The translations under genes and the position numbers were made by a program. A stretch of DNA of 60,544 nucleotides from Aporhodopirellula sallentina SM41 (GTDB taxonomy: Bacteria; Planctomycetota; Planctomycetia; Pirellulales; Pirellulaceae). The notes beneath the pieces were generated by a model, which was not told the origin of the DNA, ran no database searches, and saw only the letters and a program-made list of their open reading frames with translations. The stretch spans positions 1-60,544 of the forward strand of contig NZ_ANOH01000315.1 of the NCBI RefSeq assembly GCF_000346505.1, written 5' to 3'. Positions 4,417 through 24,270 of this stretch are shown in pieces; position 1 is the stretch's first letter; every line of letters begins with the position of its first letter.

Positions 4417-5559
4417 ATGAAATCGATGTTTCTCTGTTCACTCTTTGTGAGCGTGTTTACGACCGGATTGTTCGCCGCCGAGGGCGAACCGGTTGCCGTG
4501 CGATCGTGGCCCAACGGTGTGGTCTCGATTGAAAACCAATGGGGATTGTCGCTCGCGATTGTTCCCCGTGCGGATGATAAAGTGTCTGTCCCCGACGACG
4601 TCGATCAGGTCATCGTCGTGGAACAGGCAGAGTGGGGACACGTGTTGTCGCGACTACCGAATCAACCCAAGACAACTTGGGGGCGGTCTACGTCGGATTC
4701 GATGACGGACGCCAACGCGATGACGGTTCGCTCGATGGGGCCAACGATGACTCGCATCGACGTTGATGGCGTCGGTGTTGTCGTTGCGACCGGGGATTTG
4801 TCGCAGAACAAGGTGGGCGATTCGGCGGGCGACTTCGTTGACGTGGACGCTTTGGTGCTCTGCGATGTTGGGCCTGGACAAATGGCCCATGAATCGGTCG
4901 TCAGTGTCGTCGACACGGTCAATCCACGTTGGGGACTGCCCTTGGCCGTGAATCCCGACCAAGTGACAGGCAAAGGCCGAACGGGCAACACGTTTGCCGT
5001 ATCGGCATCGGAGCGTGGTCCAGAAGAAACCGAAACGGTTCTCCTCAGTCAAACACCGTGGGAGATGCCGGAAGATCTCGCGGCGATGTTTGATGCGATG
5101 GAAAAAGCGTGCCGGAAGTCGCAAGAGGTCTTTGCCGAACTGTCGGTCTCGCAGTTGAACTTCCAACCGGCCAACGGAACCCACACGCCTCGGTGGAATG
5201 CCGAGCACATGATGGGACGACAGTTGCTGTTCTTCTCTCAGATCTATCACGCGATCGATCCTGCCGTGACCGTGATGGATCTCAATCCAAAACAAATGCC
5301 AAAGGACTACGAGTTCGCGCATCCAGATTGGGACGGTGTCGAAGAGGCTCGTCAGATGCAGCGGGCTAGTGACTTCTGCCGCCGGTTTGCCTACCTACTC
5401 GACGGCATCGAACTCAATGAAAAGGCACCGGGAAGCCGATGGCCATCGCTGCGGGCATTGTTGGTTCAAATGCAAAAGCACTACGGCGAGCATACCGCGA
5501 ACACGCAGAAGAAGTTTGCGTTACCCGGATGGCCTGAGGCGAGTGGCGAATCGGAATAA
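4417..5559 (+). CDS. Secreted protein with C-terminal DinB-like four-helix domain
   Basis: The protein has 380 residues with a clear signal peptide (MKSMFLCSLFVSVFTTGLFA, cleaved before AEGE). Residues about 20-200 form a beta-rich N-terminal domain that I do not recognise. Residues about 205-365 look like a DinB/YfiT-type four-helix bundle: 'EDLAAMFDAMEKACRKSQEVF', 'TPRWNAEHMMGRQLLFFSQIYH' and a late 'MQKHYGEHTAN'. Histidines in these places (AEHM, IYH, HYGEH) are where DinB-superfamily proteins bind a divalent metal. The family includes thiol-dependent transferases, but most secreted planctomycete members have no known reaction. It converges on the next operon with 26 bases between the stop codons. 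The DinB call is fairly safe; no enzymatic role is claimed. Confidence 0.75.
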   Translation: MKSMFLCSLFVSVFTTGLFAAEGEPVAVRSWPNGVVSIENQWGLSLAIVPRADDKVSVPDDVDQVIVVEQAEWGHVLSRLPNQPKTTWGRSTSDSMTDANAMTVRSMGPTMTRIDVDGVGVVVATGDLSQNKVGDSAGDFVDVDALVLCDVGPGQMAHESVVSVVDTVNPRWGLPLAVNPDQVTGKGRTGNTFAVSASERGPEETETVLLSQTPWEMPEDLAAMFDAMEKACRKSQEVFAELSVSQLNFQPANGTHTPRWNAEHMMGRQLLFFSQIYHAIDPAVTVMDLNPKQMPKDYEFAHPDWDGVEEARQMQRASDFCRRFAYLLDGIELNEKAPGSRWPSLRALLVQMQKHYGEHTANTQKKFALPGWPEASGESE

Positions 5560-5585: not shown

Positions 5586-6476
5586 TCAGTCGAGCGGTAG
5601 CACGTCGACACTGACCTTCAACTCCGGTTGTCCTCCGCCCATGACGATTCCACGCATCGGGCTGATATCGTCGTAGTCTCTTCCGAGGCACATTGGGATA
5701 TGGTCGGTGCCGGCGCGGACGGCGTTGGTGGGGTCAAAATCAACCCAACCGACCTCGGATCCTGCGTACACGCTGATCCACGCGTGGGATTCGTCACTAC
5801 CGACGAGCCGAGGTTCACCTTCGGGTGGATAGGTTCGCAGGTATCCGCTGATGTATCGGGTGGGCAATCCGAGACTTCGCAGGCACGCGATTTGGACGTG
5901 CGCGAAGTCTTGGCAAACGCCCGCTTTCATCAGGAACGCGTCCTCGGTGGTTGTGTTGACATCGGTGGCCTGCGTGTCGTAACGGAAGTCGTTATGAATG
6001 TGTTTGGTTAACGCGTCGACCGCATCGACAATACTCGTGTGAGGCTGCATGATTTCGCGGGCGTAGTCGGCGAACTTCGGGCTGAGTTCGATACGCGGCG
6101 ATTCAAAGACGAACTCGCGCGCGTCCCAGTCGACAGGTTTGTCACCTCGACGGACCATCGACGCGAGTTCGGTCCAGGCCGGTGCGGAGGCGAGGTTTTC
6201 GGCATCGGGGGCCGAAACGGTCACTCGACTGGTCACTCGGACGAGCAATGACTGGTGCAACGATTCGATCGAAAACGAGTCGACCATGTTGCCGTAGTAG
6301 TCCGGGTGCCGGAGGATCGATGCCGGTGCAGGATCGATCTCCACTTCGCACGAATGGCATTTCAGTTTCGCTTGATTGCGCGGCCGCATCCGAAGTTGGT
6401 TCTGGCACAACGCCACCGGTTCGCTGTAACGGTACGCCGTCTCGTGGATGATTCGGTAGTTCGCGGTTTGAGTCAT
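5586..6476 (-). CDS. Transglutaminase-like protein of the ATP-grasp/alpha-E cluster
   Basis: The protein has 296 residues. The N-terminal 80 residues match the bacterial transglutaminase-like N domain ('YRIIHETAYRYSEPVALCQN'). The core carries the papain-like triad: Cys178 in 'KAGVCQDFAHV', His221 in 'DESHAWISVY' and an Asp (probably 238) in 'WVDFDPTN'. There is no signal peptide, so it is cytoplasmic. In this cluster type the protein is usually read as a peptidase or amide-bond editor that works with ATP-grasp ligases; no substrate is known. It is the last gene of the minus-strand operon, 90 bases after the fused ATP-grasp/alpha-E gene. The family call is firm and the role in the cluster is inferred. 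Confidence 0.9.
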   Translation of the reverse strand: MTQTANYRIIHETAYRYSEPVALCQNQLRMRPRNQAKLKCHSCEVEIDPAPASILRHPDYYGNMVDSFSIESLHQSLLVRVTSRVTVSAPDAENLASAPAWTELASMVRRGDKPVDWDAREFVFESPRIELSPKFADYAREIMQPHTSIVDAVDALTKHIHNDFRYDTQATDVNTTTEDAFLMKAGVCQDFAHVQIACLRSLGLPTRYISGYLRTYPPEGEPRLVGSDESHAWISVYAGSEVGWVDFDPTNAVRAGTDHIPMCLGRDYDDISPMRGIVMGGGQPELKVSVDVLPLD

Positions 6477-6566
6477 CAGGCGACAGCGTGGGAAACAGAT
6501 GAGAGCGTGGGGAAAAGGTGGGCTCGGATCACGGTGGAGGTTGTGAGGATGTCGGCTCGTTGTTTT

Positions 6567-9492
6567 CTACGTCGGTTTGTCGGCGGGGCCGGGCGGTAGG
6601 AGTGCGAGTGGCGGGAGTGTTTTTGATGGTTCGCCAGTGAGCGACTGGGAGACCGATGTGTGAATCAAGTATCGGGCTTCCAGTGCGTTGGCGAGCCTCG
6701 GCATTCCGATGCACACCTGTTCGAGCAATTCGGCGAGAGCACCACGCTCCTGGTTTGCCCCGCACTGGGTGAGTTTGACGATGTCGGCCACGAGCAATCG
6801 GCGCATCAGGTCCGCGGCGATCCGTTCATCCGCACCCAACCCGACTTGCGACGCCGATGTGGGGAGTTCCAGGAGTACCTGTTCGATGTCCTGCAATTGG
6901 AACCTCAGTGAACGAGGGTTCGATTCGTCGGTGACCAACAGGTCGATGGTGGGTGCCGGTTGGACGAGTGACAGATAGCGCGATCGATACGTCATCAAAC
7001 TGTCCGTCGCATCCAAAATCGCTTCGCAAAGGTTGCTTTCGTTTGCCAACGGCACCGTCATCGTGGCGTTGAGCAGTTCGGCGGTTTGGTGAGCCCGTTC
7101 GATGCGGCGTCCGAGCAAAACGAAACGCCAACCATGAGTGCGGGTCAAACTCTCCGCCGACAGCCCACTGAACGCGAGCAGCAGCGTCACGCAGTGATTG
7201 AGTCGTTCAATCGCTGCGATCACGTTGGCACCGCGAGGCCGACTTTGCACGACGATCTCGTTGTGAAGGCTACGCAGAATCCGATACGCGTCCAGCGAGA
7301 TCCGGTCGCGAACCGCCGATGCGTTTCGCAGGGCACCGACCGCGGCGGATTGGAGCCCTCGCGAGGTGCCGCAATCGAATACGCTCGCTGGCAACATCAG
7401 GTCGAGCTGCGGCATTGCACGGCCGAGTCCCTCGATCGCATAGTCGGGTTCGAGTTGACCCATCGCGGCGAGGGCTTTGACGAGATGCGGCATCTCGGAC
7501 AGTTCATCGTACTCATCTTCACCGGCCAAACGCGTTAGCGTCGTCCGCAGCAATCGTGCGATCGATTCGCACCGCTCGGTGTATCGTCCGAGCCAGAAAA
7601 GATGTTCGGCAACCCGGCTGGGCAGTTCTGCTCCGCTGCGGCGAAGGCGGATTGTTTCGGATTCGGGTGACAACAACGTTGCTTCGTGGTCGATCGGCTC
7701 ATCGCTGACGATCCAGCAATCTTGCGTCATTTGTCCGCTCGTCGGGGAGCGGCCGAGCAAATCCGGTTTCGGACTCACGCGAGCCAAACCACCGGGCAGA
7801 ACCTCGATGCCGTCCGCCGTTTGCAACTGGAACGATCGCAGCGTGAGGTGCCATGGTTTGAGCTTTCCATCCACCCATGCCGGCGTCAGGCTGTGCGAAA
7901 GACGTTCTTGTCCGACGTAGCGATGCGGGTTGGCTTTGATCTTTTGAACCAACTCGGCCTTCTCTTCCGATGTCATGTACTCCGGAACGGACGGTTTGGC
8001 GTCGTTGACCGAATAGGCGCTGCGGATGATCAGTTTATCGAGGTTTTCCAAAACGAACTGGCACGGGCCTTCGTCGCCGCACCAATAGGTTGCGACGCTC
8101 GGCAAGAGCATCTCCTCGCCGAGCAGCTTTCTCGCCGACGCGGCCAAGAACGGGAGGCAGTGCGGGCATCTCCGCGATGGCGGCACCGATCGCGTTGACG
8201 ACCGACACATGACCGCCACGGATGGTTTGCAACAAACCCGTGCAGCCTTCCATCGAAAGCGGATCGAGTTCGAGTGGATCACACTTGCGGTCCGAAACAT
8301 GACGCCAAAGAACTTCGATCGGCAACAGCCCGCCGAGTGTTTTCAGGTTCAATCGTTCGCCACGAACGGCGAGGTCGCGGCCCTGGACGAGCGTGTAACC
8401 GAGATACCGCGCGAGGTACGCGTCCTCGAATTCGCGGTAGCTGCCCGGACCAGGAGTCAGCAACGCGACGCGCGGGTTGTCACGTGCTCGAGGTGCGAGT
8501 GAGCGGAAGTGTCCCCGGAGCGATTCAAAGAAAGGGGCCAACCGACGAACGTTGGCACGTCGATGCAAGTGCGGCAACGCACGGCTGAGGACGATTCGGT
8601 TTTCCAACAGGTAACCGAGTCCGCTCGGGGCGCGTGTGCGGTCGCCTGTGACCCACCAACGCCCACTATCGCCGCGAACGACATCGAACGCGGTGACATG
8701 CAGGCGGCGGGACATGCCTTCCTTTGCCATCGTGGCGGCTTCGTTCTCGCTTGACTTTGCCGAACGTCCGAGCCGGTGATAGACGCGGTAGAAACGTGGG
8801 TTGCCCCAAACGAGTTCCGGGGGAATGACACGGTCGGTGACCAAGTGCTGCGGGCCGAGAAGGTCGTCGAGCACCGCTTCGAGGACGCGAACGCGTTGGG
8901 CGAGTCCGTCCGCGAGTCCGACCCAGTCCTTTTCTTGGAATGCGACCGGCAGCGCCGCTAACTGCCAGGGACGTGACGGGTCGACGGGGGGTGTCGCCCT
9001 GGCCCCGTCGCCTCTTTGATTGCCAGCTTGTTCGAGCGGACCGGTACCCAATGGCCCGCTGCCGAGCACACCGCTGGGGAGTGCCGCGGTGCCGCCCGCC
9101 GCGATGCTTTGCGGTCCCGTTGTCAGCGGATTGACGACACTCGCGGGGGCGTTGAAGTCTTGGTTGCCGTCGGACGGTTTTTGATTGGCGTCGACCTGGA
9201 ACGTCAGCCCGTTTTCGCGGATGAGCTGTTCGATCTGTTGCGAACGCTCGTCCAGTCCGGACGGGCCGATTCGGTTGAGCGTGCTTTCCACGGTCGACCA
9301 GTGTGGACGAATGGCGCCGTTTTCATCGCGTGATTCGTCGAAACGGCCCGCCTGCTTTTCATAACTGGCGAGCGACAATGGGGCTGCGATGCTGGTCGAC
9401 AATGTGGTCTGGGCTCCGGTTTGAATGCCGATAGGGAACGAGATCGCATGTCGCGCTAACCTTCCCTCCGATCGACTACCCGCCTTGAGCAC
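6567..9492 (-). pseudogene. Circularly permuted ATP-grasp + alpha-E fusion, broken by one frameshift
   Basis: Two overlapping frames, 9492 to 8035 and 8300 to 6567, together encode one protein. The first ends correctly at '...NAIGAAIAEMPALPP' and the second continues with 'FLAASARKLLGEEMLLPSVATYWCG'. Removing one base from the GGG at 8152-8154 joins them; 2,925 bases then give exactly 975 codons (974 residues). The N-terminal half is COG2308-type permuted ATP-grasp ('RPHWSTVESTLNRIGP', 'RAPSGLGYLLENR', 'LLTPGPGSYREFE'). The C-terminal half is alpha-E/DUF403 ('SRVAEHLFWLGRYTERCE'). About 75 Gly/Pro/Asn-rich residues are inserted near residue 105. Where the free ATP-grasp copy in this operon has 'VVKAAGESGGYG', this one reads 'LIIRSAYSVNDA', so the Lys and Gly loop are lost. 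It may be a non-catalytic partner. The break could be a sequencing error. Confidence 0.85.
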
Positions 9493-9513
9493 GCCGATTC
9501 ACGAATGCTCATT

Positions 9514-12500
9514 TTAGAGCCGACGCAAATCCATGGTAACCGGGTACGGTTCCGATCCGACCACGGGTGGCAAATTAGGGACTACTATTTCTCCACCCGT
9601 CATCGTGAACGCATCGAATCTCGCCGCACGCCGCGATTCAGCCTCTTTCGCGTTGATCGGGAAGTTCTCGCTCGATACCCCACCTGGGTGTACTGCGTGG
9701 TACGTGCACCCCCCGACGCTGCGGCGAGCCTTTAAATCGACCAGGTCGAATTGCAGTGGCGTGTGAATCCCGATGGTGGGATGCAGGCACCGTGGTGGTT
9801 GCCACGCACGATACTTCACGCCGGCCACGCCCTGCCCGGTCACGCCGGTTTTGTGCAGGGGCACACGGTGGCCGAAACACGTCACCGCGTATTGATTCGG
9901 ATCCATCCCCTCGACCAGGATCTGCAATCGTTCGAGCGACGAGTCCACGAACCGCGCTGTTCCGCCCGAGCCGGGTTCCTCGCCCATCACGTACCAAGGC
10001 TCGATCGCGCTGCGGAGTTCCATGCGGACTCCATCAACGACCAATTCACCCATCAGTGGGAAGCGGAACTCGTGGTGAGGCGCGAACCAGTCGGCCTTCA
10101 CCGGGGAGCCTAATCGTTGTAGTTCGCCGGTGAGTTTGTTCAGATCGTCCCAGACGAAATGCGGCAGCAGATAGCGGTCATACAACATCGGTCCCCACGG
10201 GACGAGCGGTTCTTGATACGGGCTATCCCAAAACGCAGCCACGATGGCGCGAATCAGCAGTTGTTGCGAAAGGCTCATTTGCGCGTGCGGCGGCATCTCG
10301 AACCCACGCAGTTCGACCAGCCCTAAACGCCCCGTCGAGCTGTCGGGGGAATACATCTTGTCGATGCAGATTTCGGCGCGGTGTGTGTTGCCGGTGGTGT
10401 CAACGAGCAAATCGCGGAACAACCGGTCGACGATCCACGGTTGGACGTCGGCACCGAACGGAGGTAACTGTGCCAGGGCGATTTCCATCTCGTAGACGGA
10501 ATCGCTGCGGGCTTCGTCCATCCGCGGTGCTTGGCTGGTCGGGCCGATGAACTTGCCGCTGAACAGGTAGGATAGCGCCGGATGGTTGTGCCAGAAACGG
10601 ATCAAACTGCCGAGCAAATGAGGCCGCCGCAGAAACGGGCTGTCGGTCGGTTTGGCACCGCCCATGACGACATGGTTTCCGCCGCCGGTGCCGGTGTGAT
10701 GCCCGTCGAGGTCAAACTTCTCAGTGCCGAGACGCGACAAACGTGCTTCTTCGTAAAGCGTCTCGGTCAGCGTGACCAACGATCGCCAAGTCGACGACGG
10801 TTGCGTGTTGACTTCGATCACGCCCGGGTCAGGGGTGACTTTGAAGTAATCAATCCGGTCGTCCGGTGGCGGCAGGTAACCTTCGACGACAACCGGTAGG
10901 TCGGTCAACGCACAGGTCTCTTCCACTGCCGAAACAAGGTCGAGGTAATCTTCGAGTCGCTGCGCCGGAGGCAGGAAGACGTGCAGGCGTCCGAACCTTG
11001 CTTCGACACAAAGTGCGGTATGCACGATGTCGTTGTGGGTCGGCAAATCATCTTCATCGACGTCATCGAGCGTTTGTTCGTTGACCGCCAAAGCCGTTGA
11101 TTCAGCGGGACCGCCGATGCGTCCGCCACCACCGCCGGTGGTCCCGCCCTGGCGTGCGGCGACATAGCTTTCCATTCCACGCGGTGTACCACCGCTTGCA
11201 CCGGGGCCGCGGTAAGGCGGCGGCAGTGGATTGTGGCTGATCGTGGGGTCGAGCGGTGTGGTGTAGAACGGCGCCGTGCTGAAGGAGTCCGGTGGGAGCG
11301 TTTCGAGCGGGAGTCGCAGTCCGATCGGTGATTCACCAGGGATCAGGTAGATTTTCTCGCTGCGGACCGGCCAACGACCGCCCATCCAACCAGGGTGAGC
11401 TTGCCACCAAGCGCGACGCAGCGGCAGAACGTACCCGACCGGCGTGCCGAGGCCGTTGCCGAACGTCCGCATCAACATCGCCCGCTCATTGGGGTCTTTG
11501 AGACGCGGGTCGGCCGGGTCGATGTCGACGGGAAGACGGTCTTCCTTCCAGAGGTAATGGAAGATGTCTTCGTGGACCGGGAAGGTCATCTTCGCACTGA
11601 TGTTGAGTTCGCGCGAAAGCGTTCGGATGAACCGACGGGCATCTTCGTGCGTGTGTTTGTAGTCGCGACCTTCGTCGGCCAGCCATTTTTCGTCGTTCCA
11701 GATCGGTTGGCCGTCGCGGCGCCACAAACAGGTCAGCGCCCATCGGGGCAGTTGTTCGCCGGGATACCATTTGCCTTGCCCGTAGTGCAGCAAGCTGCCC
11801 TTGGCGATTTGGTCGGTCTCGGTGAGCTTTTCACGGAAGCGTTTGAGCAGCACGTTGCTGAGCACGCGTTTGTCTTCGCCGACCGCGTCGGTGTTCCACT
11901 GCGGGTGGTCCATGTCGTCGATCGAAACGAACGTCGGTTCGCCGCCCATCGTCAGTCGCACGTCACCGGCGTTGAGTTTCTCATCGATCAGGTCGCCCGC
12001 TTTGAGGACTTCCTTCCACGTCGATTCGGTGTACGGTTTGGTAACGCGCGGGTCTTCGTGAACTCGCGTCACTTTCATGACGTGTTCGAACGTTACCTCG
12101 CACGGTTCGTGGCCACCGGTGATCGGAGCCGCGCCGGTGTACGTCGGCGTGCACGCGAGAGGAATGTGCCCCTCGCCGGCGAGCAATCCGCTCGTTGGGT
12201 CGAGTCCGACCCAACCTGCACCGGGCAGATAAACCTCGGTCCATGCGTGCAGATCACAGAAGTCTTCGGTCGGTCCCGATGGGCCGTCGAGTGATTCTTG
12301 GTCGGCGGCGAGTTGGATGAGGTACCCCGAAACGAAACGTGCGGCCAATCCCATGTGACGGAACGTCTCGACCAGCAACCACGCCGAGTCACGGCACGAA
12401 CCGCTGCAGAGAGTCAGTGTTTCTTCGGGGGACTGAACGCCGGGTTCGAGCCGGATGTTGTAGTAGATCTTCTGCTGCGCGGCGCGATTGATGTCGACGA

Positions 12501-12933
12501 TGAAGTCGATCGTGCGGTCGTTGGACTGCGGCAGCGATTGGATCCACGCGTCCAAGGCGGGAGTCAGTTCGCCCGGTTCCAAGTAAGACGACAATTGCCG
12601 TTTGGTGTCTTCGTCGTACTCAAACGGGAAGGCTTCCGCGGTGTCGTCGACGAAGAACTCGAACGGGTTGATGACCGTCATGTCGGCAACGAGGTCGACG
12701 GTGACGCAGAGATGGTCGATCGGCTTTTCGAAAACCAAACGTGCGATCGGGTTGGCAAACGGGTCTTGTTGCCAATTCACAAAGTGTTGATCGGGCGAAA
12801 CCGTCAATTGATACGACTGAATCGGTGTCCGGCCGTGATAGGCCGGTCGTAATCGAACGAGTTGAGGCCCGACCATGATGGGCTTGTCGTACTCGTAGGA
12901 GGTTTTGTGGTGCAACGCGACGCGAATCGTCAT
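9514..12933 (-). CDS. Transglutaminase + DUF2126 putative amidoligase fusion
   Basis: The protein has 1139 residues, normal for this family (COG4196-like). Residues 1-90 are the transglutaminase N domain ('HHKTSYEYDKPIMVGPQLVR'). The transglutaminase core has Cys180 ('CSGSCRDSAWLL'), His229 ('DLHAWTEVY') and Asp245 ('GLDPTSG'). From about residue 310 the DUF2126 region begins ('RLTMGGEPTFVSIDD', 'GQGKWYPGEQLPRWAL'). It continues to the C-terminus with 'TGTGGGNHVVMGGA' and 'RRPHLLGSLIRFWHNHP'. A Gly-rich linker ('GGTTGGGGGRIGG') sits near residue 600. DUF2126 is described in Pfam as a putative amidoligase. The inferred role is ATP-dependent amide-bond formation paired with an amide-cleaving domain in one chain. 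It is cytoplasmic, with gaps of 52 bases upstream and 21 bases downstream in the operon. Confidence 0.93.
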   Translation of the reverse strand: MTIRVALHHKTSYEYDKPIMVGPQLVRLRPAYHGRTPIQSYQLTVSPDQHFVNWQQDPFANPIARLVFEKPIDHLCVTVDLVADMTVINPFEFFVDDTAEAFPFEYDEDTKRQLSSYLEPGELTPALDAWIQSLPQSNDRTIDFIVDINRAAQQKIYYNIRLEPGVQSPEETLTLCSGSCRDSAWLLVETFRHMGLAARFVSGYLIQLAADQESLDGPSGPTEDFCDLHAWTEVYLPGAGWVGLDPTSGLLAGEGHIPLACTPTYTGAAPITGGHEPCEVTFEHVMKVTRVHEDPRVTKPYTESTWKEVLKAGDLIDEKLNAGDVRLTMGGEPTFVSIDDMDHPQWNTDAVGEDKRVLSNVLLKRFREKLTETDQIAKGSLLHYGQGKWYPGEQLPRWALTCLWRRDGQPIWNDEKWLADEGRDYKHTHEDARRFIRTLSRELNISAKMTFPVHEDIFHYLWKEDRLPVDIDPADPRLKDPNERAMLMRTFGNGLGTPVGYVLPLRRAWWQAHPGWMGGRWPVRSEKIYLIPGESPIGLRLPLETLPPDSFSTAPFYTTPLDPTISHNPLPPPYRGPGASGGTPRGMESYVAARQGGTTGGGGGRIGGPAESTALAVNEQTLDDVDEDDLPTHNDIVHTALCVEARFGRLHVFLPPAQRLEDYLDLVSAVEETCALTDLPVVVEGYLPPPDDRIDYFKVTPDPGVIEVNTQPSSTWRSLVTLTETLYEEARLSRLGTEKFDLDGHHTGTGGGNHVVMGGAKPTDSPFLRRPHLLGSLIRFWHNHPALSYLFSGKFIGPTSQAPRMDEARSDSVYEMEIALAQLPPFGADVQPWIVDRLFRDLLVDTTGNTHRAEICIDKMYSPDSSTGRLGLVELRGFEMPPHAQMSLSQQLLIRAIVAAFWDSPYQEPLVPWGPMLYDRYLLPHFVWDDLNKLTGELQRLGSPVKADWFAPHHEFRFPLMGELVVDGVRMELRSAIEPWYVMGEEPGSGGTARFVDSSLERLQILVEGMDPNQYAVTCFGHRVPLHKTGVTGQGVAGVKYRAWQPPRCLHPTIGIHTPLQFDLVDLKARRSVGGCTYHAVHPGGVSSENFPINAKEAESRRAARFDAFTMTGGEIVVPNLPPVVGSEPYPVTMDLRRL

Positions 12934-12985
12934 AGAAAAACCGGGGTATGATCAAAAGGAATGAAACGGCGTCTGTAGGAATTTC

Positions 12986-13936
12986 TTACGCTGAAACGGG
13001 AGCTTGGAAGTAATCTTCGGCGAGCGTGTTGCCGATGTCGTTGAGTTCTCTCTGCAGGTGGTCAACGAACTCGTGCATCCCGCCGGCGAGTACTTCTTCG
13101 ACTTGGGTGTGCGCGAGTCGGTGTTTGAGGGCGTCGACCTTGGTGCTCGATTCGCTCGAGGACTGATTGCTCGACGCTTGATCGATTTCGCCGAGCGACC
13201 ATCCTGCCGAGGCAACGCACCGGTGGACGCTGCGTGGGAACGTCCGGTTGAACAGGAAGAAGCCAACGACGTTGGGAATATCGATCTCGTGATGGTCGCG
13301 CCGGTAGGCTTCGAATCCGCTGATCGCGAGAAGCAGCGCCGACCACTGCATGTCGTCGATCGCCGTGCCGACGTGTTCGACCGAAGGCAGCAGGTTGAAG
13401 TACTTCACATCGAGGATACGGGATGTCTTGTCCGCACGTTCGAGCATCCGACCGACGTTGGCAAAGTGCCACGCGGTGTCCTGGGCCATCGTGCTCTCGA
13501 GCACTCCGCTCCACAGCAACGTCTGTTGGCGAATCTCGTCAAAGAACTTGCTCGTCCGGTCGAGCGATTCGTTGCGCGAAGCCTCGTTGACAAAGAGATA
13601 GAACTCGTTGATCTGTTCGAACGCTTCGGAGGACAGTTTTTCGCGAACTCCACGTGCATTTTCGCGTGCGGCACGCAAACACGTCAGCATGGAGTTGGGG
13701 TATTCGTCGTCGAACGCGAGAAAGTTGACCACGTTCTCTTGGTTGGGAACGCCGTACTTTTCAGTGAACCATTCTTCATCGCCGGTGACGCGGACGAGCG
13801 GTTCCCAAGGGTCAACGAGGTTTTCAGGTTGATCCAGAATCAGGTGCAGCGTGACCTCGAGAAACCGGGCGAGGTTTTCGGCACGCTCGATCTGGCGACT
13901 CATCCAATAGATCGATTCGGCGACGCGGGAGAGCAT
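12986..13936 (-). CDS. Alpha-E (DUF403) domain protein
   Basis: The protein has 316 residues and is an all-helical stand-alone alpha-E protein (COG2307). It opens with the signature 'MLSRVAESIYWMSRQIERAENLARFLEV', the same motif found in the C-terminal half of the fused gene downstream ('SRVAEHLFWLGRYTERCE'). A second conserved stretch is 'HFANVGRMLERADKTSRILDV', matched in the fusion by 'RFVLLGRRIERAHQTAELLNA'. The biochemical role is unknown; comparative genomics links it tightly to permuted ATP-grasp proteins. It lies between the ATP-grasp gene (112-base gap) and the transglutaminase-DUF2126 gene (52-base gap). Having a free and a fused copy in one operon suggests two paired ATP-grasp/alpha-E units. 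Confidence 0.92.
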   Translation of the reverse strand: MLSRVAESIYWMSRQIERAENLARFLEVTLHLILDQPENLVDPWEPLVRVTGDEEWFTEKYGVPNQENVVNFLAFDDEYPNSMLTCLRAARENARGVREKLSSEAFEQINEFYLFVNEASRNESLDRTSKFFDEIRQQTLLWSGVLESTMAQDTAWHFANVGRMLERADKTSRILDVKYFNLLPSVEHVGTAIDDMQWSALLLAISGFEAYRRDHHEIDIPNVVGFFLFNRTFPRSVHRCVASAGWSLGEIDQASSNQSSSESSTKVDALKHRLAHTQVEEVLAGGMHEFVDHLQRELNDIGNTLAEDYFQAPVSA

Positions 13937-14048
13937 GTTGTGAACTGATATAAGAAGGAGAATGGAAGGTGCGGTGTGAACGCATTCTGGCGGACAGTTG
14001 GGCGACTGTGGGGGAGAAATCGCCGGGACAAACCGAGTGGTGACGCAA

Positions 14049-15581
14049 TTACGGACGGGCGACGATCTGGCCGGGGCTGGCCACGACCCAAGTATCCTTG
14101 CTGCCTCCGCCTTGCGACGAATTGACTACCAGTGATCCTTTTTTCAACGCAACTCGTGTGAGTCCGCCGGGCAACACCCAGACATCGTCCGGTCCTTCGC
14201 AAAGAATGTAAGGGCGAAGGTCAACGTGACGGCCCTCGAGCGTTTCGCCGGTCATGGTCGGGACACGGGAAAGTTGCAGGGTTGGTTGGGCAACGTAGTT
14301 GCGTGGGTTCTCGCGGATCTTTTCTGCGAACTCGGCTCGTTGTTGCTCGGTCGCGTGAGGTCCGATCAGGATCCCGTACCCGCCCGATTCACCCGCCGCT
14401 TTGACGACCAACTCGTCGAGGTGCGCGAGCACATAATCGCGGTCTTCGTCGCGTTGACATAAGTACGTCGGCACGTTGTTCAGGATCGGTTCTTCGCCGA
14501 GGTAGTACCGGATCATTTCGGGGACAAACGCGTAGACCACTTTATCATCGGCAACACCGGTTCCCGGGGCATTTGCCAGAGCAACGTTGCCGGCTCGATA
14601 CGCACGCATCAGGCCAGGAACGCCGAGTACGGATTCTTTGTTGAACACCTCCGGGTCGAGGAAGGTGTCGTCGACGCGGCGATAAATCACGTCAACCTGC
14701 TGACGCCCGTCGGTCGTTCGCATGTAAACGTGATCGTTCTCAATCAGCAGGTCGCGACCTTCGACCAATTCGACGCCCATTTGATGTGCGAGGAACGAGT
14801 GCTCGTAATACGCACTGTTGTACACACCCGGGGTCAGCACGACGACGGTCGGGTTGGGCATGTCCTGCGGGGCCATCCGCCGGAGCATTTGGTAGAGACG
14901 GGCCGGATAATCATTGACCGGCCGAACGCTCGAGTCGGAGAACGCGCGGGGGAAGTTTTTCTTCATCACCGCGCGGTTCTGCAGCACGTAGGACACGCCG
15001 GAAGGGCAACGCAGGTTGTCTTCGAGAACAAACACCGATCCGGCGTTGTCGCGAACCAGGTCCGTGCCGGTGATGTGGCACCAAACACCGGCAGGCGGCT
15101 TCAGCCCCTTACACTGCGACATGTACTGAGGGCACGAATCGATGATGTTTGCCGGGATCAATCCGTCGTTGATGATCCGGCGTTCGTTGTAGACGTCATC
15201 GAGAAAGAGGTTGAGCGCGCGAATACGCTGTTTCAAACCAAGTTCAATGTCTGACCAAACCGTCGCCGAAATGATGCGAGGAATGATGTCGAAAGGCATG
15301 ATTTTCTCAGTGCCCTCTTCATCGCTGTAGACGGTGAACGTGATTCCCATTTGATAGAGGGAACGTTCGATCGCACGTTGACGACGAATCAGTTCGCCGG
15401 CGGGAAGTCGGTTCAGCAGGTCAACAAGAGCCACGGAATCCGGACGAGCCACGCTGTCGGCACTGACGACTTCGTCATAGAAACCTTCCGATTGGTAATT
15501 CTCCAACCGAGGATAATCTGTCATCGAGGATGTTGTGTCCGAGGTTTGTGACTGCGACTGAGATTGCATACAGGTACCCAT
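14049..15581 (-). CDS. Circularly permuted type 2 ATP-grasp protein
   Basis: The protein has 510 residues. After a Gln/Ser-rich start (ATG 15581; a second ATG at 15569 and a third before 'TDYPRLENY' are possible) come the COG2308 blocks: 'IRRQRAIERSLYQMGITFTV', 'VLEDNLRCPSGVSYVLQNR', 'VVVLTPGVYNSAYYEHSFLA', 'VDVIYRRVDDTFLDP', 'VVKAAGESGGYGILIGPHA' and 'VLPGGLTRVALKKGSLVVNS'. The Lys and Gly loop expected for ATP binding are intact, unlike in the fused copy of this operon. Members are predicted to join an amine to a carboxylate through an acyl-phosphate; the real substrate is unknown. It is the first gene of the operon. A perfect inverted repeat lies 64 bases upstream of the start. Confidence 0.93.
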   Translation of the reverse strand: MGTCMQSQSQSQTSDTTSSMTDYPRLENYQSEGFYDEVVSADSVARPDSVALVDLLNRLPAGELIRRQRAIERSLYQMGITFTVYSDEEGTEKIMPFDIIPRIISATVWSDIELGLKQRIRALNLFLDDVYNERRIINDGLIPANIIDSCPQYMSQCKGLKPPAGVWCHITGTDLVRDNAGSVFVLEDNLRCPSGVSYVLQNRAVMKKNFPRAFSDSSVRPVNDYPARLYQMLRRMAPQDMPNPTVVVLTPGVYNSAYYEHSFLAHQMGVELVEGRDLLIENDHVYMRTTDGRQQVDVIYRRVDDTFLDPEVFNKESVLGVPGLMRAYRAGNVALANAPGTGVADDKVVYAFVPEMIRYYLGEEPILNNVPTYLCQRDEDRDYVLAHLDELVVKAAGESGGYGILIGPHATEQQRAEFAEKIRENPRNYVAQPTLQLSRVPTMTGETLEGRHVDLRPYILCEGPDDVWVLPGGLTRVALKKGSLVVNSSQGGGSKDTWVVASPGQIVARP

Positions 15582-15948
15582 CTCTCGCGTCGGTCAGTCC
15601 GCCCCTGACAACGTCGAAATAAAACGTGAAGAAGAGAGCCCGTAGTGTATCGCAAACGGACTTCCGATACACCAATTCAATGGGATTGTTGCGCAATGAG
15701 GCGACGGTCACCGCAATTCGCCACTATTGGTAGCCAGGTCGCCACGATCCATTCGGTTGCAGCCAGGAATTGGGGATCGATTCCGTGGTGAAAGTCGCCC
15801 AGTTTTCAATGATTCACGGGGGCCACCGAATCTCCTGGCGAGTTTCGCAGCCGCCGTGGATTTTGGAATAGGTCGTGTCCGCTCTCTGTAGCGGAATTGG
15901 CCAGAATTCAGCCCGTCGAAGTCTTGCGATATCGGCTACTGTATTCTT
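15582..15948. other. Non-coding gap upstream of the ATP-grasp operon
   Basis: This 367-base stretch separates the DGC-domain gene from the ATP-grasp operon; both are read on the minus strand. It should hold the operon promoter, but I see no convincing -35/-10 pair. It contains the inverted repeat at 15645-15672 and a smaller hairpin (TCCGCT/AGCGGA, 15878-15895) with no T-run. No coding frame is supported. Confidence 0.6.
15645..15672 (-). promoter_or_regulatory. 8-12-8 perfect inverted repeat in the ATP-grasp operon leader
   Basis: GTGTATCG (15645-15652) and CGATACAC (15665-15672) are exact reverse complements around a 12-base spacer. The repeat lies 64-91 bases upstream of the first start codon of the operon. 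It could be an operator for a dimeric repressor or a leader hairpin. There is no U-run beside it, so a terminator is unlikely. Confidence 0.5.
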
Positions 15949-16344
15949 TCAAGCGATCGAGTCTGCCTGGGTGACCTGGCGTTTTTCGGTCTGTTGTTGG
16001 GTTACTTGTTCAATAACCGCCTCCATGACCGCGGCGAAATGATCTGAGTCCGGAAACGCTGCGTTTTTCTTGATCCCGATGTCGTGCAGGCGAATGTGGA
16101 CGTCGGGTTCTCGTTGGACCTGGCCGAACACGCCAAGGCTGCAGTGAATCGGGCAACCGTCGATCACCCAAATCTCTCGATCGGTCAGCTTTTTTAGGAA
16201 CAGCGGTTTGGCGGCGCCGATCCCTGCCAAGCATGACATTTCGGCGATGCCTCGGCGATCGAGTTCTCGAGCCACCTCGTCGGCCAGATGCCCCGCGTTG
16301 GAGCATCCTGAGCAGGCGAACAAGATAGGCCGTTTCGTTGACAT
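15949..16344 (-). CDS. DGC-domain putative zinc-binding protein
   Basis: The protein has 131 residues. The cysteine pattern matches the DGC domain: Cys11 and Cys14 in 'FACSGCSNAGH', Cys38 in 'MSCLAGIG', and Cys64 and Cys68 in 'VIDGCPIHC', which includes the naming motif Asp-Gly-Cys. These cysteines probably bind zinc or another metal; no reaction is established for the family. It follows the RIC gene by 13 bases on the same strand, so the two are likely co-transcribed. The context suggests a part in metal or redox handling during nitrogen-oxide respiration, which is inference. Confidence 0.85.
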   Translation of the reverse strand: MSTKRPILFACSGCSNAGHLADEVARELDRRGIAEMSCLAGIGAAKPLFLKKLTDREIWVIDGCPIHCSLGVFGQVQREPDVHIRLHDIGIKKNAAFPDSDHFAAVMEAVIEQVTQQQTEKRQVTQADSIA

Positions 16345-16357
16345 TGGTTATTCCTTG

Positions 16358-17059
16358 TTAAAGTGCGAGGGCTTTGACGAACAAAACGTTGTTTTCTTTG
16401 TGGATGTGTTGATGCATGTCGGCTTCCAGTCGTGCCAGTGAATCCAACATGGCGCGATAGGTGTTGCACGCCCACTCCGGTGGAGCGTAGCCGTCGGTGG
16501 ATTCGTTCAGAACCGCGAGGGCGTTTCCCGCCTGATCATGCTCATGCTCCATCTGCCGAATCGGATTCGCCACGCTGCCGCAGAAGAACTCGGGTTGATC
16601 GGAGGAGGACTCGAGCTGCCGCACGATCGGAAACAGGATCTGTTCTTCCTTCATCATGTGAGGTTCGAGTTCGGACTTCAGAGCGACGAAGGCCTCACGC
16701 ATCTGGTGCAGTCGTGCGTCTTTGTCGCCGTGGACCCGCGAGACCTTCTCGGTCATGGCATCGAGCCTCGGCAATTCTTCACGCAGGTAGGCGTGGTGCG
16801 TGGTTTCGATGTGGTCGGCGAGTTCGGTCAACGTCATCGAGTCGACATCAACGTGACTGTCGCTATGCAACGTAGCGTCGTTGGCGTGTATTCGTTCCAT
16901 TACCTCTGCGGTATCGATACCGCGTTTCTGGCACGCTCGGTCCAACGACACCTTGCCACCGCAGCAGTAGTCAATCTTGAGGCTTTCGAAGACGCGTGCG
17001 CGATTCGGGCTCTGGCGGACCAAGTCACCTACGGTTTGTTCCGGGTTGAGAGTTAGCAT
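16358..17059 (-). CDS. ric: Iron-sulfur cluster repair di-iron protein (RIC/YtfE/ScdA family)
   Basis: The protein has 233 residues from the ATG at 17059; a GTG 33 bases upstream is also in frame. The N-terminal ScdA domain has 'VGDLVRQSPNRARVFES' and the hallmark 'IDYCCGGKVSLDRAC'. The C-terminal hemerythrin-like domain supplies di-iron ligands in 'ETTHHAYLREELPRL', 'SELEPHMMKEEQILFP', 'MEHEHDQAGNAL' and 'MHQHIHKENNVLF'. Known members repair Fe-S clusters damaged by nitric oxide or peroxide, and some release NO. It sits downstream of the nap genes on the same strand, consistent with protection against NO made from nitrite. An NsrR-like dyad lies about 100 bases upstream of its start. Confidence 0.93.
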   Translation of the reverse strand: MLTLNPEQTVGDLVRQSPNRARVFESLKIDYCCGGKVSLDRACQKRGIDTAEVMERIHANDATLHSDSHVDVDSMTLTELADHIETTHHAYLREELPRLDAMTEKVSRVHGDKDARLHQMREAFVALKSELEPHMMKEEQILFPIVRQLESSSDQPEFFCGSVANPIRQMEHEHDQAGNALAVLNESTDGYAPPEWACNTYRAMLDSLARLEADMHQHIHKENNVLFVKALAL

Positions 17060-17157
17060 GGTGTGCTTTGATTGTGAGAAAGAAACTGCCACGCAGAGCA
17101 GAGCTGCCGCAACGGATCGCCGGCGGCAAATACGCTCGCTCTGTCCATGCCTCCAGT

Positions 17158-17178
17158 GTGCAAACTTTAAATATGCAC
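17158..17178 (-). promoter_or_regulatory. NsrR-like imperfect dyad upstream of ric
   Basis: Read on the minus strand the 21 bases are GTGCATATTTAAAGTTTGCA followed by C. The outer GTGCA/TGCAC arms pair perfectly and the A/T core is partly symmetric. The layout resembles NO-sensing NsrR operators (ATGC, A/T core, GCAT), and ytfE/ric genes are classical NsrR targets. The site lies 99-119 bases upstream of the ric start. The assignment is tentative; no regulator gene is in the window. Confidence 0.35.
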
Positions 17179-17238
17179 GTCAAGGTGTATTATTGGGGCG
17201 GCTGGATTTCGAGTCGCTTCGTTGGTCGCGCCGCGGGG

Positions 17239-17529
17239 CTAGCTGTCGAGCGTGGGGAGTCGGTTGCGAATGATTTTGGTCGTTGGGTCGCCCGGCATGA
17301 TCGTGTCGCACCACATTTCGCCTTCGAACAGGTATCGCACCTGGATTGCCTGAGCATCGTTTTCTGCAAACGATCTGGCGGCATCGGCGAGCGAAACCGT
17401 CGCATCGGTTTTGCTCGATTTCAATTGCACGTGTTGAACGTCGGCGCCCTCGGATAAATCTGCGAATAGCTGCATGACTTGGTCCTTCGCCCATTCGGCC
17501 TGCAGGATCTCGGGAAGGTCGTCGTTCAT
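17239..17529 (-). CDS. Small uncharacterised protein in the nap region
   Basis: The protein has 96 residues from the ATG at 17529 ('MNDDLPEILQAEWAKDQVMQLF'). An in-frame GTG at 17631 would add 34 residues of low-quality sequence. The product is acidic and soluble with no cysteines beyond one in 'GEMWCDTIMPGD' and no signal or membrane segment. I do not recognise the family. It lies 166 bases after the ferredoxin gene and before ric on the same strand, so it may belong to the nap transcript. The steady acidic-amphipathic composition and same-strand context argue that it is real. Confidence 0.6.
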   Translation of the reverse strand: MNDDLPEILQAEWAKDQVMQLFADLSEGADVQHVQLKSSKTDATVSLADAARSFAENDAQAIQVRYLFEGEMWCDTIMPGDPTTKIIRNRLPTLDS

Positions 17530-17695
17530 CGAAGGCTCGTGCGGCAAGGTGTGATTCCGAGTTGAAGAAAGTGGGAGATGAGAAACTGTTCGAGGCCGCA
17601 TCGGCGGGGCGGCGTTCGTCGCGGTTGACACGCGTGACGAAAAGCGGTGCTGGCTTTGAGGCGTCCGCGCAAGAGCCTCTTGGTTCTTGTCTGTG

Positions 17696-18553
17696 TCAAT
17701 CGTGTCGTTGAGCGAGTCCCGGTCGGGCGAAGGCGGGCATTAGCAGGATCGCGTTTTCCGGTGCCGGGCAAACGTATCGGCAGACACCACATCCGGTGCA
17801 ATCGTTTTCGTTGACTGTTGGCTTTCCTTGCGTGACGACGATGGCCCCTTCGACAGGACACCGTTCGCTGCAAACGGTGCAAAGTGTGGAATGATGAGCC
17901 AGGCACAAGTGTTCGGTGATCCGAGCCGTTCCCATGATTGGCGAGATCGAATCGATCAGAACTCCGGGTTCGCAGGATGCAATGCACGGGAAGTCTTCGC
18001 ACATCATGCATGCGGAGTGATCAGCCTCGATGATCGGCGTTCCGGCAACATCGCCCAATCGATCGGGAGCTTTGACGATCGCATCATGGGGACAGGCGGT
18101 GATGCAGTCGCCACATCGTGTGCAGCCGGATAGGAACTGAAACTCATCGATGGCTCCAGGCGGGCGATGCAGTGGGAGCGTTTGGGCGGCTCGCTTGGTG
18201 CCAAGGTCCGTTGGCGGAACCGGTGCAATGTTGATCCCGTTGATGCTGCGTGGTGCTTCCTGCGTGTTCGGGCGGTCTTCAGGTTTGGGCAGTCGTGTGA
18301 CCAGGGGCGGAAACCGCGACTGTGGCATCAGTCTCCAGAGCCGACCTTGGATCAAATCGCGTCGGCTGCGATTGGTTGGCCGAGTTCGGAATAGAAATCT
18401 GCATGCACGAAGGGGAAAACGAATGGCCGCCGCGAACTGTTTCTTGAACGCCGTCCGGTAGCTCGCGATCCGGTTCGCGCCTGCGTTCTCGCTCGTTTCC
18501 TTATCATCCACACGGGGGTGCTGTTGTCGGCGTCGCGTCAAACCCGGCACCAC
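17696..18553 (-). CDS. NapF/NapG-like 4Fe-4S ferredoxin
   Basis: The protein has 285 residues from a GTG at 18553 that directly follows the stop of the NapB-like gene, which suggests translational coupling. The Cys motifs are 'CTRCGDCITACP', 'CMMCEDFPCIASC', 'CTVCSERCP' and 'CTGCGVCRYVCP', enough for four [4Fe-4S] clusters as in NapF/NapG. The basic N-terminal 90 residues contain no Tat motif and are poorly conserved in appearance, so the true start may be further in. The probable role is electron transfer or NapA maturation on the cytoplasmic side. No NapH accompanies it. Confidence 0.82.
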   Translation of the reverse strand: MVPGLTRRRQQHPRVDDKETSENAGANRIASYRTAFKKQFAAAIRFPLRACRFLFRTRPTNRSRRDLIQGRLWRLMPQSRFPPLVTRLPKPEDRPNTQEAPRSINGINIAPVPPTDLGTKRAAQTLPLHRPPGAIDEFQFLSGCTRCGDCITACPHDAIVKAPDRLGDVAGTPIIEADHSACMMCEDFPCIASCEPGVLIDSISPIMGTARITEHLCLAHHSTLCTVCSERCPVEGAIVVTQGKPTVNENDCTGCGVCRYVCPAPENAILLMPAFARPGLAQRHD

Positions 18554-18554
18554 A

Positions 18555-19364
18555 TCAATTCGACACGACGTTCAGAGGAGGCAGCATTGGAACGCTCTCT
18601 GGGCTGAACTTCTGGGCGTCGGGCATTTGGTCCAGCGTTGCCGAGGGTGCGTGGCACTGCGTGCAGTTGGTTCGCCATGGGTGTGTTGATTCCATACCGG
18701 CCCAACCGTTGGGGCCTCCGTGGCACGCGTTGCAGTTTTCTCGCATCCACCGAGAGTGCGGGATCGTTGGTGGTGCCCCCGGGTAGGCTCGCTTGCCTTG
18801 CTTCGGTGCAGGCAACCCGACGAAGCTGGTCTGTACGGTCGCGTCGACGTTTTGGAACGGCGCCGGGGCCATCGGTGCGTGACACTGGACACAGTTGCCG
18901 AGGAATTGATGAGACATGACACTGGCTTTCAATCCCGCCATCTTCACGCCATTCCCATGGCAGGCGTAGCAAGCCGCGTCGGTTGTGTTCTCGACCGGGT
19001 GCGGGATGACCGGCGGCGCACCGTTGAACGCCCGGCGGGACCCTCGCTGTTTACTGGACGCTTCCTTTTCGGCTTCGCTCGGTTCGATCTTGGTGTAGAG
19101 ATCGTACTCGGGTTGCGGCAGCGTTTGTCCCTGAGCACTCCATGTCGCCGTCGGGCCCATCGCGGTCTGGGATACCTCGGCATAAGAAACCGCTGGGATC
19201 AATTTCGGATCGGCTTTAACTTCGTCTTGGTCGTACTGCGTGATCAGTGCGGTTTCGTCCATTCCATCGGGTTGGGGCACACCATCGCTGATGCCGATGG
19301 CGTAACCGATAAACGCGATCGCAATCACACAGGCGAAAAAGATCGGGGCGAGGCGTTTTAACAT
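18555..19364 (-). CDS. napB: Tetraheme NapB-like cytochrome c with duplicated NapB domain
   Basis: The protein has 269 residues. The N-terminus is an uncleaved anchor or signal ('IFFACVIAIAFIGYAIG'), so it faces the periplasm. Four CxxCH heme sites are present: CYACH 132-136, CVQCH 158-162, CNACH 211-215 and CTQCH 234-238. Two tandem blocks share 'R(R)AFNGAPPVIPH...CYACHG...CVQCHAP' and 'KRAYPGAPPTIPH...CNACHG...CTQCHAP', the NapB signature. Ordinary NapB is about 150 residues with two hemes, so this is an internal duplication. The inferred role is to feed electrons into NapA. It lies 109 bases downstream of napA. Confidence 0.87.
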   Translation of the reverse strand: MLKRLAPIFFACVIAIAFIGYAIGISDGVPQPDGMDETALITQYDQDEVKADPKLIPAVSYAEVSQTAMGPTATWSAQGQTLPQPEYDLYTKIEPSEAEKEASSKQRGSRRAFNGAPPVIPHPVENTTDAACYACHGNGVKMAGLKASVMSHQFLGNCVQCHAPMAPAPFQNVDATVQTSFVGLPAPKQGKRAYPGAPPTIPHSRWMRENCNACHGGPNGWAGMESTHPWRTNCTQCHAPSATLDQMPDAQKFSPESVPMLPPLNVVSN

Positions 19365-19473
19365 GACGGGAATCCTCCGTTGACGATTCGCTCAGCGACC
19401 GTCAGGTAAAGGAGTTTCGAGTCCGTGACGATCGCATTCGGGACGGGCACGCGGTTTGAACGGGATGAGTGGA

Positions 19474-21903: not shown

Positions 21904-22050
21904 TTGTCGGCTCGGTTTGTTGAAAAGATTCGATAGGGATTGTTAAGAAACGGCGACGGACCAACGCGACACTCACGATTCATCTCGCGTCTTCATGCAG
22001 AGAGAATGTTGAAAGATGAGTGGTGATTGCCTCGTTATTCTTTCGCGTGT

Positions 22051-22368
22051 TTAGACGTTTGTTCGGTTAGCACCTTGAGTGTCTTCCGGTGTGTCGTCTT
22101 GCGAGTTTGTATCGTTGCTTGCTTCTTCTTCACATTCGCTATCAAAAGCCACCATTGCGATGGCAACATTTGTTACGCTTGTTATCTGTTGTAACGTATC
22201 CCAAATCTCGCGGTCGCGGATTGTGTCATCACTATCGACCACAATTGCTAGTTTTCTATCGTTGGCTTGACCTAGATCAATTTCAGGGATCGCCTTGATG
22301 GCGTCCAATGCCTCTTGGTTTTGTTCAACTGGCGAGTCGAACGTGAGGACGAGTCCACTAATCGGCAT
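22051..22368 (-). CDS. napD: NapD-like Tat-signal chaperone for NapA
   Basis: The protein has 105 residues from the ATG at 22368 ('MPISGLVLTFDSPVEQNQEA'). This start gives the normal NapD beginning; the frame extends 69 bases further upstream without protein-like sequence. The ferredoxin-like fold pattern is visible ('IKAIPEIDLGQANDRKLAIV', 'QITSVTNVAIAMVAFD'), followed by an acidic tail rich in Asp, Asn and Ser. NapD proteins bind the NapA Tat signal and hold export until cofactor insertion is complete. It is 147 bases upstream of napA and divergent from the cytochrome gene at 22491. Confidence 0.85.
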   Translation of the reverse strand: MPISGLVLTFDSPVEQNQEALDAIKAIPEIDLGQANDRKLAIVVDSDDTIRDREIWDTLQQITSVTNVAIAMVAFDSECEEEASNDTNSQDDTPEDTQGANRTNV

Positions 22369-22490
22369 GTTGAAAGCGATCTTAAAAACGGAAAAACAAA
22401 CAGAGCGAATGTGAATAGGGGTTTTGTGAACCTGCACCTGAGTGTATATGTTGGGGCGTGTCAGTGGAACCGTGTTTTGGACAAAAATAA

Positions 22491-23150: not shown

Positions 23151-23328
23151 GAACGCAATATGTCGACGACACGTTCGATCATCTCATTCTGCCGACGCAA
23201 TGTGTTCGAGGGAGGCTGTTCCTCCGCGACAACTGCGTGTTGTTCTGCCTTCGTGTTGGCCGCCCGATTCCTGAAGACCACACGACGATTCCTGCCCGGC
23301 GCCGCGTCAACTTTTTTGCAGAGATGTT

Positions 23329-24255: not shown

Positions 24256-24270
24256 GGAAGGGACAGCAGC

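Follow-up and report, generated by a model that had tools for sequence, protein, structure and literature searches.

How many of the enzymes encoded by one planctomycetal gene cluster could actually build an amide bond? The cluster lies on the minus strand, at positions 5586-15581, of a 60,544-nucleotide stretch of Aporhodopirellula sallentina SM41 (contig NZ_ANOH01000315.1), the whole of which is called the window here. Its five genes code, in transcription order, for an ATP-grasp protein (AG), an alpha-E protein (AE), a transglutaminase-DUF2126 protein (TGDUF), an ATP-grasp/alpha-E fusion (FUS), and a transglutaminase (TG). An original prediction, made from the sequence alone, had described this gene order, the common strand, the families and the small gaps, all of which are borne out, the families with E-values that exclude chance. 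It had also counted three potential ligase units. The residues of the ATP-grasp sites point instead to what are likely two ligases (AG and DUF2126) and, in place of the third, a fused partner that is dead, because FUS lacks both predicted Mg2+-binding residues and AG has both. The cluster as such is real and belongs, as an ordinary case, to a system already predicted. What is worth keeping from it is that one of the three supposed ligases appears to be a conserved pseudo-ligase, that alpha-E is built as a tandem repeat, and that the assembly contains a frameshift. The features are as follows:

14049-15581, minus strand: AG, a stand-alone member of the circularly permuted ATP-grasp ligase family (Pfam CP_ATPgrasp_2, E 2e-170)
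14997-15026, minus strand: LEDN...PSG motif of AG (E187, N189), active-site residues intact
12986-13936, minus strand: AE, stand-alone and all-helical (Pfam Alpha-E, E 2.5e-94)
9514-12933, minus strand: TGDUF, a transglutaminase-like domain (C180, H229, D245; Transglut_core, 1e-15) followed by DUF2126, a putative amidoligase (1229 bits)
8035-9492, minus strand: first frame of FUS, N-terminal part of the fused ATP-grasp domain (CP_ATPgrasp_2 profile positions 1-256)
8620-8652, minus strand: VTGDRTRAPSG of FUS, at the place of the LEDN motif of AG; G and R stand in for E187 and N189
8145-8170, minus strand: frameshift zone of FUS, where a DNA alignment with the genomes G003, G009 and G001 puts an extra base near 8151
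6567-8300, minus strand: second frame of FUS, carrying the last part of the ATP-grasp domain (CP_ATPgrasp_2 249-374) and, behind it, alpha-E (E 2.5e-66)
6666-7625, minus strand: alpha-E domain of FUS (Pfam Alpha-E)
5586-6476, minus strand: TG, a stand-alone transglutaminase-like protein (C188, H231, D248; Transglut_core, 4e-21; Bact_transglu_N, 1e-24)

The match of AG spans the whole CP_ATPgrasp_2 profile (positions 1-374 of 374). The intergenic gaps measure 112, 52, 21 and 90 bases in operon order; 367 bases separate AG from its upstream neighbor, and a convergent gene lies 26 bases past TG. Both alpha-E domains of the whole genome are found inside the operon, as are its three ATP-grasp type 2 matches, namely AG and the two pieces of FUS.

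Catalytic residues of the ligases and transglutaminases

The ATP-grasp sites were compared in 68 AG (>400 aa) and 86 FUS (>780 aa) proteins, a set that includes the 28 AG and 20 FUS in which the rule was first seen and that does not count the broken FUS of the window. E187 and N189 are kept in 68/68 AG and in 0/86 FUS. The glutamate is replaced in FUS by A (31 proteins), G (24), S (21), R (5), D (3), T (1) or N (1), and the asparagine by R (78), W (3), Y (2), H (2) or Q (1); the window FUS carries G and R. The predicted Mg2+-binding residue D174 is also present in 68/68 AG, K347 is found in 68/68 AG and 0/86 FUS, and the glycine-rich GGYG stretch, a loop that aligns poorly, is gone from most FUS. 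The same rule holds for further, plasmid-borne sequences from Actinomycetota, Acidobacteriota, Alphaproteobacteria, Deinococcota, and Bacillota (nine of 117 matching records, sorted into AG or FUS by match length beforehand): 5/5 FUS lack E187 and N189, and 4/4 AG have both. The third ligase unit of the original prediction is thus hard to sustain, the predicted Mg2+ ligands being absent from 86/86 FUS and from these five more, and FUS is very probably unable to activate a carboxylate. Literature searches, whose coverage left out most subscription papers, gave no description of a member of this ATP-grasp class that is inactive.

The residues of AG lie in the pattern E-x-N-xxx-P-x-G following a conserved D. 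The same spacing occurs in 14/14 GSP_synth loci, one of which (L169) falls under the Pfam cut-off, when the pattern requires D, E and N and leaves P-x-G free; in E. coli GspS the residues are D318, E330, and N332. In a modelled trypanothione synthetase, Mg2+ is described as held by Asp330, Glu344, and Asn346 (PMC3581523). Judging by motif spacing only, the AG site would be of the GspS/TryS type. A solved relative, 3n6x, matches both AG and the FUS domain over nearly their full length (phmmer with AG, E 8e-159).

These similarities bear on a first alternative, in which the product of AG is a GspS-like amide of an amino acid or polyamine that serves to store nitrogen or as a redox thiol, with the transglutaminases in the role of the amidase. 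The nearest solved relative of AG, 3n6x, is annotated as a putative glutathionylspermidine synthase, the motif spacing of AG is of the GspS type, and GspS is annotated as a fused amidase and synthetase. Moreover, in Burkholderia the related genes are under NtrC regulation beside urea and polyamine transport genes (PMC5491218), and an association with urea-metabolism domains has been reported in marine metagenomes (PMC3597751). However, the name of 3n6x is an annotation and not an assay, and the polyamine- and glutathione-binding residues lie outside the comparison. We regard a small-molecule product of this kind as unlikely.

In a tree of the 68 AG and 86 FUS ATP-grasp domains, built by a quick method without bootstrap, rooted at midpoint and containing several long FUS branches, the two groups are divided by a single branch with support 100. 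Within the operon the two copies are about 30% identical. Because the tree splits AG and FUS so cleanly, the two domains appear to be old paralogues.

With respect to the amide-cleaving units, both transglutaminase domains retain Cys-His-Asp, in agreement with the two units originally proposed. The triad of TG is found in 77/77 aligned rows, and C180, H229, and D245 of TGDUF are invariant in a 32-row alignment. DUF2126 is a putative amidoligase with a predicted glutamine-synthetase-like fold; a search of the Protein Data Bank (PDB) sequences with the TGDUF profile found no match to the DUF2126 part with an E-value under 0.4. Additional loci of two relatives, G009 and G025 (L042 10486-17207 and L048 6727-13697), carry two tandem transglutaminase-DUF2126 paralogues with a 4-base overlap and, besides these, a shorter DUF2126 gene of some 700 aa with a divergent transglutaminase. 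Another locus (L088 6152-7273) has, directly after alpha-E, a zinc-ribbon gene of the zinc peptidase family Peptidase_Mx (Pfam, one member), whose sequence family lies near the core genes in six gammaproteobacterial loci at a median distance of 15 bases.

The interrupted fusion gene and the alpha-E fold

The fusion had been described as a single gene, which does not hold for the window. Here FUS consists of two frames, 9492-8035 and 8300-6567, that overlap by 266 bases and share one ATP-grasp domain, the window carrying one base more than G003, G009, and G001 near 8151; no uninterrupted frame covers the gene. Both parts stand in a single frame in 12/12 genomes of the same genus and in 15/15 relative loci with FUS. 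Likewise, the fusion type of alpha-E was seen in 40 genomes, and in 38 of them it lies in an open frame of 853-966 aa. The remaining two are the genome of the window, with 591 aa, and G015, where the gene is divided into fragments between two contigs.

Is the gene then a true pseudogene in an operon that is decaying in this strain? The frame is broken by one extra base where 12/12 congeners have a single frame. The part before the break also evolves somewhat faster, with dN/dS values of 0.067 (against G003) and 0.096, than the whole gene compared between G003 and G009 (0.049), synonymous changes being near saturation. However, the part after the break gives 0.038 against G003, which resembles AG (0.037) and AE (0.025) and lies close to TGDUF (0.033); over all comparisons FUS ranges from 0.036 to 0.096. 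The remaining four genes are intact and the assembly is a draft of 491 contigs. The part after the break is still under purifying selection and, because it evolves like a working gene in a draft assembly, the break is taken either to have arisen very recently or to be an error of assembly. A true pseudogene is unlikely. The overlap of 266 bases could also suggest programmed frameshifting that yields FUS as two products, an explanation already disfavoured and of negligible probability, since FUS is one frame in all relative loci with the gene and is open at 853-966 aa in nearly all genomes that carry it.

The alpha-E domain bears on the same question. The two halves of AE are homologous (hhalign E 2.4e-21, probability 99.4, against values of at most 0.5 for 20 shuffled controls) and each carries an ER motif in a long helix, so the protein (12986-13936) is an internal tandem duplication. 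In a 35-row alignment, E17, R18, and E166 are invariant and R167 is found in at least 90% of the rows. The predicted model of AE has a mean pLDDT of 91; none of the solved folds stands out for it, and PDB sequence searches with alpha-E returned no significant relative. The ER motifs are also kept in the alpha-E domain of FUS (23/23 and 22/23 rows). Because of this conservation and of the purifying selection on the gene, FUS reads as a pseudo-ligase with a job and not as a decaying relic.

Two modules, their co-occurrence and their control

The order AG-AE-TGDUF-FUS occurs in 12/12 congeners and is followed by TG in ten of them; in the other two, TG was not found in the stretch of L033 and L044 stops at a contig end. 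A wider scan of named genomes listed 80 loci out of 584 relatives and may omit records very near the window. The top match among those listed is a metagenome-assembled genome of Rubripirellula sp. (Pirellulaceae, 65% identity), which stands beside the genus of the window in the tree. Gene arrangements were counted in these 80 loci, from several phyla and many on short contigs, by a 900-base rule: the full five-gene order was found in 15, TGDUF-FUS-TG without adjoining AG-AE in 28, TGDUF-FUS-TG with divergent AG-AE in 10, and other or cut arrangements in 27. In order-level relatives (L065-L068) the two modules also occur at a distance from each other. Since the modules occur together or apart in several phyla, the operon appears to be a joining of two old separable modules, AG-AE and TGDUF-FUS-TG, and not a doubling specific to this genome. 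The doubling in one transcript, which the original prediction had singled out as the point of interest, is weak in this light, AG and FUS forming old separate groups and the same order recurring in 15 of the listed loci.

DUF2126 is present in 38 of 60 relatives (the window genome and all 12 congeners included) and never occurs there without FUS (38/38). With alpha-E classes read from a table by open-frame length and score, 39 of these 60 have both the FUS type and stand-alone alpha-E, one has FUS only, three have stand-alone only, and 17 have neither; G040, with a long open frame, was called stand-alone, the fusion of G015 is in pieces, and the Fisher test ignores kinship. A further 39 genomes, taken from the 80 listed loci mostly because AG-AE did not adjoin TGDUF, divide into 36 with both, one with FUS only, and two with stand-alone alpha-E only. 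Stand-alone alpha-E thus accompanies FUS in 39/40 and 36/37 genomes, which suggests a joint complex, FUS being seldom found without it; FUS seems to depend on the active AG-AE pair more than the reverse. That FUS works together with AG-AE is, in our estimate, slightly favoured. Pairs of FUS and transglutaminase without adjoining DUF2126 also exist (L171 5839-9221, L172 5938-9239, and L173 5893-9239, from plasmids of Tsukamurella, Sinorhizobium, and Sphingomonas).

With respect to transcription, the five genes would form one transcript, judging from their layout. No terminator-like site was found in the four intergenic gaps, and the 4-base overlaps of AE/TGDUF and FUS/TG in several relatives count for a single transcript. 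Against it stands a minus-strand site just before FUS (9539-9511) that weakly resembles a promoter; the region as a whole has about as many such sites (3) as shuffled sequence (2.3). The upstream gap is the following:

15582-15948, minus strand: gap upstream of the operon; best sigma-54-like site 7/12 in 400 bases

Different reports connect these families with nitrogen. For instance, in an ntrC mutant of B. cenocepacia, the changes recorded for I35_5080-83 (DUF404/407, DUF403, and two transglutaminases) range from -6.0 to -9.4 (PMC5491218), and Anbu, a protein of the proteasome family, is said to rise in nitrogen-limited P. putida (as cited in PMC5666114). A simple consensus scan of 250 bases, set against mononucleotide shuffles and with related species counted apart, detected sigma-54-like sites of at least 10/12 upstream of 18 of the 80 listed TGDUF genes (shuffles 0.9%) and of 10 of 38 AG genes (0.6%). 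When 400 bases were scanned, a 10/12 site came up in one congener (L045), 279 bases upstream. A nitrogen-economy role in this genus is possible and must be put forward tentatively; for at least some Proteobacteria, the nitrogen-control sites name the growth condition in which to look.

The operon is flanked at its end by a converging gene for a DinB_2 protein (4417-5559), whose relatives occupy the corresponding position in G003 and G009. Upstream, positions 15949-25536 hold a respiratory nitrate-reductase-like set (NapA-like, 19474-21903; NapB-like, 18555-19364; Fe-S proteins and NrfD), a ScdA/hemerythrin-like protein (16358-17092), and a DGC-domain protein (15949-16344). The nitrate-reductase-like genes have no match in 20 relative loci, each examined with a few kb of flank, and for this reason their proximity was given no weight.

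Proposed amide cycle and known systems

The operon is almost certainly a member of the amidoligase/peptidase systems described by Iyer in 2009, whose comparative-genomic work assigns them a predicted role in making or modifying peptides (cited in PMC5666114, PMC6376114, and PMC3597751). That these families co-occur and have been predicted in print to act on peptide bonds, as the original prediction stated, is supported. Literature searches, outside whose coverage most subscription papers fall, found no established product, and an unrelated pathway assigned to close homologues was looked for in the literature and not found. The operon probably makes and cleaves amide bonds, and by a small margin we favour the view that it consists of two modules of old standing, joined in this lineage, that belong to one predicted system for amide conjugation.

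In the mechanism that we propose, AG would activate a carboxylate as an acyl phosphate by means of Mg-ATP and join it to an amine, with AE as its substrate-binding partner and DUF2126 as a second ligase. FUS would perform no ligation; as a dead fused paralogue of the AG-AE pair it could bind the same substrate or partners and scaffold or gate the active ligase. The transglutaminase-like Cys enzymes would hydrolyse or transfer the amide, so that the conjugate is both made and removed. The only proteasome-family match of the genome is an Anbu gene on another contig (G000:C399), none being present in the operon, and at that locus (L053 1640-3218) a transglutaminase gene starts 4 bases after Anbu; this pair might complete the turnover. 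The cycle might be switched on by nitrogen limitation in some Proteobacteria.

A further alternative, in line with the original prediction and with Iyer 2009, is a peptide-tagging or poly-amino-acid system in which all ligases, FUS included, are active, so that three units build and the transglutaminases and Anbu trim. It has on its side the published prediction (Iyer 2009, as cited in the three papers named above), the Anbu gene with its adjoining transglutaminase, and the stretch SGLRSVRDK of that Anbu, which resembles the Anbu-2 type; the S1 pocket of Anbu-2 is reported to be basic and possibly tuned to acidic substrates (PMC5666114). Small families near TGDUF-FUS-TG in Pseudomonas-type loci (L149 16792-17121, in nine loci; L113 17364-17888, in five; L090 16800-17084, in four), of which the L149 and L113 examples have no Pfam match, could be substrates as this alternative needs, or possibly unrelated neighbours. 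However, E187 and N189 are gone from every FUS examined, and none of the 25 largest neighbour families (open reading frames of at least 60 aa) is a small gene shared across phyla. An all-active system is, on balance, improbable.

Several observations also weigh against the conjugation system with a dead FUS that we prefer. D188 is kept in 65/86 FUS and K394 in 48/86, and three of the 86 have Asp at position 187; since these residues often remain, some nucleotide or metal binding by FUS may persist. The assignment of DUF2126 as a putative ligase rests on its Pfam name. The GspS of E. coli lacks P-x-G, and a profile comparison (hhalign) of AG with that protein alone gave no match, so the equivalence with GspS/TryS would be one of spacing. 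FUS occurs without stand-alone alpha-E once per survey (G050 and G262) and without DUF2126 in two relatives (G016 and G021), and TGDUF occurs without fusion-type alpha-E in two genomes (G290 and G292). Within 250 bases, 0/13 members of the window's genus have a sigma-54-like site of at least 10/12. No substrate was found in the literature for any enzyme of the operon. In one study, Anbu used as bait with co-expressed operon proteins of Y. bercovieri gave no specific interaction (PMC6376114), and the Anbu structure paper rates the peptide-synthesis idea as less likely (PMC5666114).

The boldest form of the proposal makes FUS, with its dead ATP-grasp joined to a tandem-repeat alpha-E, an obligate partner of AG-AE across phyla; with DUF2126 and the Cys amidases it would run a reversible amide tag, carried by proteins or peptides, that is possibly acidic and induced by nitrogen starvation and is then cleared by Anbu-2. 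Taken whole, it is quite unlikely. If true, bacteria would possess a conjugation cycle in which an inactive subunit has its own dedicated place. The Anbu, alpha-E and ATP-grasp families are widespread, and experiments on them can be focused once it is clear which predicted ligases are able to function.

Among known systems, the Anbu operon (ATP-grasp, alpha-E, transglutaminase, Anbu) is closest to the first module, AG and AE being of the same families in the same order; the operon of the window lacks Anbu and has the second module (TGDUF, FUS, TG) joined instead. The ATP-grasp protein of the Y. bercovieri Anbu operon is reported to release phosphate from ATP (PMC6376114). The systems predicted by Iyer in 2009, known here through citing papers, share the circularly permuted ATP-grasp and alpha-E families in one neighborhood. 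The B. cenocepacia cluster I35_5080-83 also groups DUF404/407, DUF403, a transglutaminase-like gene and a large transglutaminase-like gene (PMC5491218), but it is under NtrC/sigma-54 control, and no sigma-54-like site lies within 250 bases here.

GspS and TryS share the D...E-x-N motif with AG, and the 14 GSP_synth loci share the spacing up to P-x-G, although no significant profile match to AG was obtained. In those enzymes the ligase is fused to an amidase, whereas here it stands beside genes for Cys hydrolase-like proteins, and the amidase family of GspS/TryS is different from the transglutaminase-like enzymes of the operon. The RimK/RimB pair and the rlo operon of Pseudomonas likewise combine an ATP-grasp enzyme with a peptidase, and rlo includes an inactive enzyme partner (PMC12239564); their peptidases, however, are aspartic, and the dead partner in rlo is a transglutaminase, while in the operon of A. 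sallentina it would be a ligase.

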